Shown: in pieces, positions 59,826 to 62,195 of the stretch | How positions within the stretch are numbered: the first letter of the stretch is position 1 | Layout of the letters: the number at the start of each line of letters is the position of its first letter | NCBI GenBank assembly: GCA_944337235.1 | Contig: CALVLK010000004.1 | Coordinates: 48,937-112,936, forward strand | Length of the DNA stretch: 64,000 nt | Direction of reading: 5' to 3' | DNA from: an uncultured Clostridia bacterium | GTDB lineage: Bacteria > Bacillota > Clostridia > Christensenellales > Borkfalkiaceae | Notes under the pieces: generated by a model | What the model was told of the DNA's origin: nothing | Database searches by the model: none | The model's input: the letters and a program-made list of their open reading frames with translations, nothing else | Program-made: the position numbers and the translations under genes

Positions 59826-61475
59826 ATGCCGCAAGACGCATTTACCCTTCGGCTCGTTGCAAAGGAACTCGATGATTCCCTGCGCGGCGGAAGGATCAAT
59901 AAGATCAATCAACCGGGCAGAGACGAATTGTCCCTTCTAATATACACCGGAAAGCGCACGCTTAAACTCATACTCAACGCAAATGCCTCCGATTGCGGCG
60001 CATATTTTTCGGAGGAGGAGCAGGAAAACCCGCTCGTGGCGCCCAATTTCTGCATGCTGCTGCGCAAACACCTTGCGGGGGCGGAGATCCTCGGCGTCGC
60101 GACGAACGGATTCGAGCGTATTCTGGTCATGCGCCTGATGTGCCGCTCCGACTTTTCGAGTGCGGAGCGGGAACTGCGCGCCGAGATCATGGGGAAGTAC
60201 TCCAACCTCATCCTCACGGAAAACGGCGTCATTCTGGGGGCGCTCAAGACCACGACGCTCGACGAGCACTGCAAGCGCGCCATCCTGCCCGGAGCGAGAT
60301 ACACCCTGCCCGAGCCGCAGCCCGAAAAGGTGAACCCGAGCGACCGTGCGGCGCTGCAACATCTGCTCTCCGCCAGGCCGCAGGGGGACATGGCGGACTT
60401 TCTCTTCCGGCATGTCTCCGGCCTTGCGCCCTGCACGGCGGAGGAGATCGCGGCAAGCTATGCGGGCGGCGATCTTGCCGCGCATGTGTACGACTATATC
60501 TTTTCCGACGAGATCTCGCCGCGCGTCACCAAGCGCGACGGCAACGTGGTCGACTTCTTTGCGCGCGCGCAGAGGGGGATCCCGTTTGCGAGCATCTCCG
60601 ATGCGCAGAGCTACTTCTACCGCAGACGGCGCGCAAAAAAGATGTTTGAAGCGGAGGCGCGGCGCCTGCACACCGCCCTCTCCTCTGCCGTCAAAAAGGA
60701 GGAAAAGCGCCTCGGGCAGATTATGGACAGAGCTCTGGAATGCCGTGGGGCCGAGCTCAACCGCATCAAGGGGGAGCTGATCACCGCCAACCTCTACCGC
60801 CTGAGCCGCGGCATGAAGTCGTGCGAGCTGGAAAATTATTACGACGGCAAGACGCTGCGCATCGTCCTGGACGAGACGCTCACCCCCGCGCAGAACGCAC
60901 AGAACTATTTCCGTCGCTACCGCAAACAGCAGCGCGCCCTGCAATATCTGCAGCCGCAGGAGGCGGAGGTGCGGGGGGAGCTGGACTATGCGCACAGCCT
61001 GCTCGCCGCGCTCATGTGCGCGGAGCGGGAGGAGGACTTGAAAAGCATCGAAGAGGAGATGACGTCCGCAGGATTTTTGCGCGCGCCGCAGGAACAGCGC
61101 ACGCGCAAGACGAAGGCAGAGATCCCCTTCCGCACCTTTGAAAAGGATGGGTTTCACATCTTTGCGGGCAGAAATAATCTACAGAACGACCGGCTGCTGC
61201 GCAGCGCCGCGCCCGAGGACATCTGGCTGCATGCGCAGCGCTATCATTCCTGCCATGTGATCATCAGGACGGAGGGAAGAACCGTCCCCGAAGCGGTCAT
61301 CGCCTATGCCGCCGCAATCTGCGCGCGCTATTCCGACGCGGGCGGCGACCGCGTACCCGTGGACTATTGCCCCGCAAAATTCGTCAGAAAGCCCCCGAAG
61401 GCAAAGGCGGGATTTGTCACCTATTCCTCCTTCCGCACGATTTACATCGATCCGCTCAAGGAGGGAGAACGCTGA
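59826..61475 (+). CDS. rqcH: Ribosome quality control protein RqcH (NFACT/FbpA family)
   Basis: A 549-residue NFACT protein. In bacteria RqcH binds stalled 50S subunits and adds alanine tails that mark nascent chains for degradation by ClpXP, whose genes are divergently encoded next door. The start MPQDAFTLRLVAKELDD has a GGGAGGAC site. Domains are NFACT-N (residues 1-200, with GRINKINQPGRDELSLLIY and NFCMLLRKHL), helix-hairpin-helix, a coiled coil (about 280-440) and NFACT-R (EDIWLHAQRYHSCHVII). Older annotation calls the family fibronectin-binding protein. Confidence 0.93.
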   Translation: MPQDAFTLRLVAKELDDSLRGGRINKINQPGRDELSLLIYTGKRTLKLILNANASDCGAYFSEEEQENPLVAPNFCMLLRKHLAGAEILGVATNGFERILVMRLMCRSDFSSAERELRAEIMGKYSNLILTENGVILGALKTTTLDEHCKRAILPGARYTLPEPQPEKVNPSDRAALQHLLSARPQGDMADFLFRHVSGLAPCTAEEIAASYAGGDLAAHVYDYIFSDEISPRVTKRDGNVVDFFARAQRGIPFASISDAQSYFYRRRRAKKMFEAEARRLHTALSSAVKKEEKRLGQIMDRALECRGAELNRIKGELITANLYRLSRGMKSCELENYYDGKTLRIVLDETLTPAQNAQNYFRRYRKQQRALQYLQPQEAEVRGELDYAHSLLAALMCAEREEDLKSIEEEMTSAGFLRAPQEQRTRKTKAEIPFRTFEKDGFHIFAGRNNLQNDRLLRSAAPEDIWLHAQRYHSCHVIIRTEGRTVPEAVIAYAAAICARYSDAGGDRVPVDYCPAKFVRKPPKAKAGFVTYSSFRTIYIDPLKEGER

Positions 61476-61533
61476 ACCTCCCTGCGCACGGGAGCGTCCT
61501 TCGGAAAAAATTTGCAAAACCGCGCAAAATTGC

Positions 61534-61561
61534 TTGACACTCCGCTTTTTTTTGATATAAT
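61534..61561 (+). promoter_or_regulatory. Promoter of tRNA-Pro
   Basis: Exact consensus TTGACA (61534-61539) and TATAAT (61556-61561) with a 16-bp T-rich spacer. The predicted start at 61568 lies 9 bases before the 5' end of the tRNA. Confidence 0.88.
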
Positions 61562-61576
61562 TAGGAGTGCATTTGC

Positions 61577-61653
61577 TGAGGTGTAGCGCAGTTTGGTAGC
61601 GCGTCTGGTTAGGGACCAGAAGGTCGTGGGTTCAAGTCCCGTCACCTCAACCA
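61577..61653 (+). tRNA. tRNA-Pro (anticodon AGG)
   Basis: A 77-nt cloverleaf with encoded CCA. The acceptor arm is TGAGGTG/CACCTCA, the D arm GCGC/GCGC, the anticodon arm TCTGG/CCAGA with loop TTAGGGA (anticodon AGG, 34-36), and the T arm has loop TTCAAGT. The body resembles bacterial tRNA-Pro(UGG), including GACCAG. A34 would need deamination to inosine to read CCC. The acceptor starts with U1-A72 instead of the usual C1-G72 of bacterial tRNA-Pro. The 3' end recurs twice downstream. Confidence 0.92.
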
Positions 61654-61690
61654 CGAAAAGGGCATGACAATTTATGTCATGCCTTTTTCG
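61654..61690 (+). terminator. Terminator of tRNA-Pro
   Basis: A 16-bp stem (61654-61669 with 61675-61690, one G-T pair) with loop ATTTA contains GGCATGACA/TGTCATGCC and five Ts. It starts at the base after CCA. A second version follows the next copy of the tRNA 3' end. Confidence 0.9.
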
Positions 61691-61860
61691 TGTGCTTGCG
61701 AAGTTGTGACGGGACTTGAAGGTGGGAGGTTTTTGCGGGAGCAAAGAGTTTGCGCGCGACATTGCTTGAAAACAAAAATCTCATGCGCAAACTGCACAGC
61801 CCACCGGGCTGTGCACCGGGGCGCGACGCTAAAAGCGCAAGTCCCGTCACCTCAACCACA

Positions 61861-61893
61861 AAAAAGACATGGCATTCCGTGCCATGTCTTTTT
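61861..61893 (+). terminator. Second terminator hairpin inside the tRNA-derived array
   Basis: A perfect 14-bp stem AAAAAGACATGGCA/TGCCATGTCTTTTT with loop TTCCG follows the second copy of the tRNA 3' end. It has the same placement as the tRNA terminator but a different stem sequence. After the third copy only the left arm survives (62098-62110). Confidence 0.8.
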
Positions 61894-62195
61894 ATCTTCC
61901 GCATTCGTGACGGGACTTAAGGGTGGGAGATTTTACTTCCCCGTTATTCCCAAAAAGATTTGCCCCGCAAAGATTTTTGGGAAAGAGGAGTGACAGGCAT
62001 CAGAGCAATGGGCTTTTCGCAAGAAAAGCCCATGCAAAAATTGCCTTGTCACGACGAGGCACGCCGCCAAAGGCGCAAGTCCCGTCACCTCAACCCCAAA
62101 AGACATGGCATTTATTACAATTCCGATAGGAAATTTACCACAAAACAATACGTACAACTCACGATACCGTGCAGGCAAGGCAATGCGTTATTTGT

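Follow-up and report, generated by a model that had tools for sequence, protein, structure and literature searches.

The stretch analysed here (the window) comprises 64,000 nucleotides of contig CALVLK010000004.1 from an uncultured Clostridia bacterium of the family Borkfalkiaceae, whose genome (G000) amounts to 1.4 Mb at 89% completeness. Behind its tRNA-Pro(AGG) gene two tandem units span 61652-62112, each composed, in this order, of a terminator, a segment that repeats part of the tRNA end in inverted orientation (R"), a core of hairpins and a direct repeat of the 3' end (R'). Direct copies of CAAGTCCCGTCACCTCAACC begin at 61633, 61838 and 62076, at spacings of 205 and 238 bp, and inverted copies of the tRNA end are located at 61706-61720 and 61907-61918. 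A preliminary description of this DNA had reported the copies at 61838 and 62076, their spacing and the fixed order of parts, and each of these was confirmed in both intervals. We consider it somewhat better than an even bet that the array is a stack of gene-less, integron-cassette-like mobile units of about 200 bp, which use tRNA genes as landing sites and are moved in trans by a recombinase.

The unit array and its tRNA gene

The features of the array, all on the plus strand, are as follows.

61577..61653, +, tRNA-Pro(AGG) gene (ARAGORN, Rfam RF00005)
61631-61653, +, T-loop and 3' half of the tRNA; landing site, bearing the newest 3'-end copy
61652..61692, +, terminator hairpin of unit 1, between tRNA and R"; 18-nt arms 94% complementary, T run
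61707..61719, +, R" of unit 1; tRNA nt 55-67 in inverted orientation (13 nt), with borders taken from a 42-unit profile
61720..61837, +, core of unit 1; hairpins P2-P5 within the R"/R' stem (model R1, E 5.1e-29; covariation in alignment A1; folds)
61838..61858, +, R' of unit 1; tRNA nt 56-76 in direct orientation
61861..61893, +, terminator hairpin of unit 2; 14-nt arms 100% complementary, sequence unlike the unit 1 terminator
61908..61920, +, R" of unit 2; one mismatch against tRNA nt 55-67
61921..62075, +, core of unit 2; diverged or chimeric (model E 5.1e-8, fold z -8.96)
62076..62096, +, R' of unit 2; oldest of the displaced 3'-end copies, with CCA changed to CCC
62098..62112, +, oldest terminator, left half without the right arm; 15 nt identical to 61862-61876

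The core of unit 2 combines ends of the first unit type (type 1) with a hairpin module that by eye resembles a second type (type 2), and a third copy of the unit is found in the same genome behind tRNA-Ser(GCT). The open reading frames (ORFs) listed in the array are short, overlapping and spread over both strands, and were taken as non-coding by eye, in line with the earlier statement that the intervals hold no gene. A spurious minus-strand ORF at 61442-61762 of the window runs across the tRNA and reads VTGLEPTTFWSLTRR, a type of reading across a tRNA that is often mis-annotated as protein.

Tailored ends, distribution and insertion

A profile search of the fetched loci yielded 73 distinct near-complete units, 43 of which have a tRNA on the same strand, the match starting 48-64 nt (median 54) behind the tRNA end. 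These 43 represent 13 anticodons of Ser, Pro, Leu, Gly, Arg and Thr, and one further unit (L019) is located behind a tmRNA gene. Comparison with the adjoining tRNA shows that the unit ends fit it closely. R" is the reverse complement of tRNA nt 55-67, perfectly so in 30 of the 43, with one mismatch in 10 and with two to five in 3; its mean mismatch is 0.44 out of 13, against 4.0 when the tRNAs are shuffled (the lowest of 2000 shuffles giving 3.1). The edges of this segment are sharp, as the match among 42 units rises from 0.14 at nt 54 to 1.00 at nt 55, is still 0.98 at nt 67 and drops to 0.45 at nt 68 and 0.02 at nt 69. R' could be scored in 40 of the 43 units, two having no recognised P5 and one being cut by a contig end, and is error-free over 21 nt in 29 of them; the remainder have 1 to 16 mismatches, and the mean is 1.4 versus 7.1 with shuffled tRNAs. 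The preliminary description had missed the exact extent of the inverted copy, 13 nt, and its variation with the tRNA. Where the left and right copies are unlike, R" is closer to the left one in all seven cases, a result that decay of the right copy would give likewise. The other 30 units, some of them at contig ends, have no same-strand tRNA within 160 nt; when one mismatch is allowed and 130 nt are searched, a tRNA 3'-end copy appears on the left in 14 of these and solely on the right in 9, 4 lack both, and in the last 3 no R" was recognised.

Using a relative of unit 1 (L004, reverse strand, 1-135) as BLAST query at E 0.01, unit matches were obtained in 69 of the 103 genomes of the genus, a search among relatives that had been proposed as a check, and this recurrence excludes chance. 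A covariance model was built from alignment A1, which contains 44 of 51 extracted units, the other 7 having been dropped by eye as truncated or misjoined. Searched across the order, this model matched 27 of 396 genomes, 25 in the same family and 2 in another, belonging to seven genera or perhaps six, because the matches in genus g19 (L118, L122) have no same-strand tRNA nearby and are possibly false. The class-wide search matched 3 of 391 genomes, all from the genus itself. The two out-of-family matches (L116, L120) stand behind tRNA-Arg(CCT) and tRNA-Gly(CCC) and by eye follow the same plan of R", four hairpins and R' with other hairpin sequences. A scan of genome contigs with one exact pattern found six contigs, two of them from Candidatus Gallimonas, and exact scans of viral contigs with three unit patterns gave no match. 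Both halves lay close together in 13 of 20 regions where only half of a unit had matched, and no gene was seen between unit halves in the eight loci read (7 of those 20 regions plus L005), a few of which were truncated. Cores at least 94% identical across genomes were limited to 2 pairs among 68 units. At tRNA-Pro(AGG), for which 94 genomes were matched and 30 loci examined, reading by eye placed a type-1 unit next to the tRNA in 7, a type-2 unit in 7 and an integrase in 2, one locus (L069) has a truncated type-1 unit, and another (L081) is ambiguous. A weak motif near ACGAAT also occurs between terminator and R", 4-9 nt upstream of R", among 62 non-redundant units.

If each tRNA had its own lineage of units, a tree of the cores would require 11 changes of tRNA label. 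The tree of 32 of the 43 cores (12 anticodons) required at least 21, compared with 22.8 for shuffled labels, and 121 of 1000 shuffles needed 21 or fewer. Single branches are weak, since the cores offer only about 115 nt and support values were not used; the unit of the window stands next to its genome's tRNA-Ser unit on this tree. Since grouping by tRNA on the core tree is weak if present at all, units apparently move to new targets and undergo rewriting, and target switching is supported but not proven.

The insertion itself is best seen at tRNA-Pro(AGG), where the flanks of two loci, L166 (genome G043) and L167 (G001), are 81.8% identical upstream (1580 bp) and 92.3% identical downstream (388 bp). 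L166 is longer by 201 bp, which is one unit length, and the difference lies at the T-arm, so that this comparison shows one precise insertion. In L166 a new terminator adjoins the tRNA, and the terminator of L167 stands behind the unit. A third locus, L168 (G064), shares the L166 unit at 99.2% over 253 bp and has an upstream flank of 76.0% identity over 1590 bp; the shared unit there directly precedes the oldest terminator, with that flank 96.1% identical over 129 bp, and a type-2 unit stands closer to the tRNA than the shared type-1 unit. The 3' half of the L168 tRNA, CAAATCCCGTCG, is unlike the displaced CAAGTCCCGTCA, which fits a type-2 unit having brought a 3' half with it, later mutation being also possible. 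Comparison of L167, L166 and L168 thus shows the newest unit nearest the landing site, an order held at this one locus. In a further genome (G013, L076) a related terminator comes after the tRNA, with no unit present. Behind tRNA-Ser(GGA), one genome carries a single unit (L201) and a related one carries one plus a truncated second (L202), and hence unit number does differ between two related genomes, the preliminary description having called for such a comparison between strains; empty sites at tRNA-Ser were sought by one flank (40 of 103 genomes, 30 loci), and among 14 loci examined the tRNA was present in these two. The terminators of the tandem L202 units are nearly identical.

These comparisons bear on how such stacks originate. 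It is scarcely credible that an old element shrank to its ends and was then multiplied by replication slippage: the L202 terminators and the existence of truncated units would agree with this, but the same core occurs behind many tRNAs with ends fitting each, and the tRNA-Pro stack grew on the tRNA side with a new terminator. The preliminary description had itself offered two options. Its stacked remnants of integrations hold as regards the stacking, which is real, and lack support as regards origin, because a conserved folded core belonging to one family, an own terminator and a tailored inverted copy leave remnants of ordinary integration unsupported. Its other option, a non-autonomous element that uses and restores the tRNA end, is supported by the 13 anticodons, the tmRNA, the differing unit number of L201 and L202 and the filled and empty pair, and the earlier interpretation overall is partly supported.

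Folding and pairing on both strands

Predicted RNA folds of the array are far more stable than those of shuffled sequences (z -7.2 for 61695-61900 and -9.0 for 61896-62100), and a DNA fold of 61706-61850 exceeds shuffles on either strand (z -7.0 and -6.4). In this last segment the pairing of R" with R' closes a multibranch structure on either strand, and likewise in RNA with flanks. Throughout alignment A1, 96.3% of the cells are paired and 18 of 39 pairs vary on both sides, with a covariation score of 0.301 as against 0.094 after shuffling. Covariation that does not follow from copying the tRNA is found in P2 and P4, in one pair of P3 and in none of P5. As a separate observation, P2 switches between a Watson-Crick stem and a stem with tandem G-A/A-G mismatches, the latter in about one third of the 44 units.

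A strong predicted fold and covariation speak for a structured RNA behind tRNA genes, regulatory or related to tRNA processing, and in such an RNA G-U pairs were expected to outnumber A-C pairs. The units contain 12 G-U and 14 A-C among 1716 cells (an earlier count gave 14 and 14 of 1628), whereas for 64 tRNAs of these loci the acceptor and T stems contain 72 G-U and 2 A-C among 768. Comparison thus shows pairing kept equally on both strands, since G-U and A-C are about as frequent, which in sequence terms points to pairing at the level of DNA and not of one RNA strand. In addition, a terminator stands between the unit and the tRNA promoter. Rfam 15 at gathering score recognised only the tRNA in the window and no unit family, and at E-value thresholds, applied to the window stretch and seven loci, tRNA, tmRNA and RNase P were found, all other matches being far below gathering score. 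On these grounds we regard the RNA explanation as highly improbable.

Mobility, recombinases and known systems

Under the cassette-like reading, a free type-1 unit would combine tRNA nt 56-76 as a 3' end with a terminator, with R" as an inverted half-site of 13 nt and with the conserved core of several hairpins, and would insert site-specifically at the T-loop of tRNA or tmRNA genes. Upon insertion only the 5' part of the tRNA would stay in place; the unit would supply a 3' end and a terminator, and the former 3' end would be shifted downstream to become R'. Because the unit brings a 3' end and terminator, insertion would restore the tRNA, and the next unit would enter at the tRNA again, so that the newest would lie nearest to it. 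We infer that R" pairs with R' in single-stranded DNA and so may form a half-site for a trans-acting tyrosine-type recombinase, in the manner of integron cassettes, and that R" may be rewritten, once the target has changed, by repair or replication of the R"/R' stem. Candidate helpers include islands with tyrosine integrases that use the same T-loop.

Two such islands were found, in both cases ahead of an older unit and entering the same T-loop as the units. The first, at a tRNA-Gly (L156:685-16880, genome G098), is about 16 kb long and encodes a 346-aa tyrosine integrase, followed by a T-arm copy and then the unit. The second, at a tRNA-Pro (L164:2273-16716, G349), is about 14 kb, has a 332-aa integrase-like protein with the same succession of T-arm copy and unit, and encodes a PF01446 Rep_1 rolling-circle replication protein (E 1.1e-13) that could supply single strands. 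Comparing the L054 integrase by sequence with solved structures yielded little of use, namely six weak matches to integrases, the best (E 3.2e-6) to a phage integrase fragment, and neither this integrase nor that of L164 matched the integron integrase (IntI) model TIGR02249 at E 0.001. The window itself contains no match to PF00589, confirming the earlier report that it lacks an integrase, and the two PF00589 matches of the genome are on other contigs.

Several results weigh against this reading. No link between the units and a recombinase emerged: 41 of 103 genomes encode integrases resembling the one of L156 (L054-like; E 1e-40), and these show no association with units, which are found in 28 of the 41 genomes with them and 41 of the 62 without (Fisher p 1.0). 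In the source genome, PF00589 is represented by a fragment and by one complete XerS-like protein below every NCBIfam cut-off. No circle or single-stranded form of a unit has been seen. The clean filled and empty pairs number one, and at L168 co-transfer or loss of a neighbour unit is possible, an independent insertion being inseparable from either because the downstream flank is also near-identical. Copies are imperfect in 13 of 43 R" and 11 of 40 R' segments. Labelled by amino acid, the core tree needs 14 changes versus 16.8 shuffled, with 57 of 1000 shuffles as low, a weak tendency to cluster. As to the fold, the covariation of P1 follows from tRNA copying on its two sides, the further pair types (39 versus 36.2 shuffled, reached by 70 of 500 shuffles) are not exceptional, and hairpin-templated correction of palindromes that serve no function could also yield strict Watson-Crick pairing. 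Lastly, the boxes of integron attachment sites, whose consensus in attC is RYYYAAC / GTTRRRY, are absent, R" and R' being tRNA nt 55-67 and 56-67 in alignment A1.

In other respects the units resemble integron cassettes, given their entry beside a fixed landing site with the newest first, a predicted hairpin formed by an inverted pair of half-sites and an array of units. They differ by landing at any of many tRNA genes, by a half-site that varies with the tRNA and by having no gene cargo. No IntI was seen in the source genome at its 89% completeness, where the XerS-like protein scored 46.3 bits with TIGR02249 against a cut-off of 265 and the PF00589 fragment gave no match.

An alternative is a double-stranded circle that enters by Campbell recombination between T-loop sites with the help of island tyrosine integrases, after the manner of cis-mobilizable elements (CIMEs), in which case the hairpins would be by-products of palindrome correction or serve only as terminator or integrase-arm sites. 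A double-stranded circle of about 200 bp is stiff, and the inverted 13-nt half-site, its fit to each tRNA and the four-hairpin plan in two families would be left unexplained, but both islands described above enter at that T-loop, and the displaced 3' end they leave is the same. CIMEs possess attL and attR without an integrase of their own, and the units likewise mostly have tRNA 3'-end copies at both ends and no recognisable gene. Movement of CIMEs occurs in cis through accretion with an adjoining element, and the two islands do adjoin units. Restoration of the tRNA is standard for such islands, and the Islander tDNA islands with tyrosine integrases have, in the available part of that source, a T-loop site and a regenerated target with the displaced fragment at their ends; the units differ from them in encoding nothing recognisable (PMC4383910). 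Taken together, we hold this alternative, including its account of the hairpins, to be doubtful though deserving of weight.

The nearest published parallel found is that of the Dehalococcoides ssrA islands, which share T-loop entry and stacking with the units and, like CIMEs, are flanked by copies of a tRNA or tmRNA 3' end and restore the target gene, as far as the available text of that paper goes (PMC3146451). Unlike the units they carry genes, and their integrase DsiB is a serine recombinase (PMC3146451); the same portion of text describes neither a tailored inverted half-site nor a conserved folded core, and the term 'inverted repeat' occurs 0 times in the paper's text (PMC3146451). Within the terms used, text searches of the open PMC literature, judged by titles and the beginnings of abstracts, led to no recognised description of such units.

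The 13-nt R" also invites a comparison with base-paired target recognition. In self-guided single-strand transposition, R" would pair with the T-arm of the target and with both ends and thereby position a nuclease or transposase, as in IS608 of the IS200/IS605 group, whose tetranucleotide target is found by base pairing and can be re-programmed according to the part of the source available (PMC5934647). Most of the 43 units behind tRNAs have an R" complementary to both the left copy and R', and R" follows the target, but the insertion site is that of tyrosine integrases, and this route seems quite unlikely. A bolder proposal, to which we would grant no more than an outside chance, is that R" is a rewritable 13-nt DNA guide, with self-addressed single-stranded units that pair with tRNA genes, are cut at both guide-specified ends and overwrite the guide after landing; if true, such units would be among the smallest programmable mobile DNAs.

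Miniature inverted-repeat transposable elements (MITEs) are likewise short, non-coding and bounded by inverted ends. Their ends are fixed terminal inverted repeats shared with a parent transposon, and the inverted ends of the units (13 nt) vary with the target tRNA and are not fixed; a MITE, local decay and an RNA gene were each judged unlikely. The phage CTX offers another likeness, a folded single-stranded attachment site for a tyrosine recombinase, which is reportedly a hairpin. It differs in using Xer/dif, in being a phage with genes and in involving no tRNA, and its single-stranded genome is integrated by the dimer-resolution system of the host, as stated in the portion of the source available (PMC3089051).

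Returning to the cassette-like reading, the units look like a new kind of minimal mobile DNA. A gene-less mobile element of about 200 bp that fits itself to at least 13 anticodons and a tmRNA would push down the size limit known for mobile DNA and would suggest that recombination of folded DNA cassettes extends beyond classical integrons. It would also show invaders replacing 3' halves and terminators of tRNA genes while leaving the tRNA intact, and would provide a testable case of a recombinase retargeted by a short inverted copy.

Type-2 units were observed at L071, L079, L087, L088, L089, L092 and L095, about 60-270 nt behind tRNA-Pro. They have a long inverted copy over the anticodon arm and a direct copy that begins in the anticodon loop, and their insertion would replace a larger 3' part of the tRNA. 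In the source genome, a stretch with CRISPR-like repeats (by eye; L232:1200-1731) is followed directly by the C-terminus of a truncated tyrosine integrase. At L005, a serine recombinase gene (PF07508) ends beside CTCAACCA, a terminator and a left unit part, just before the unit, an arrangement suggesting that another class of element enters the acceptor end of the same tRNA.
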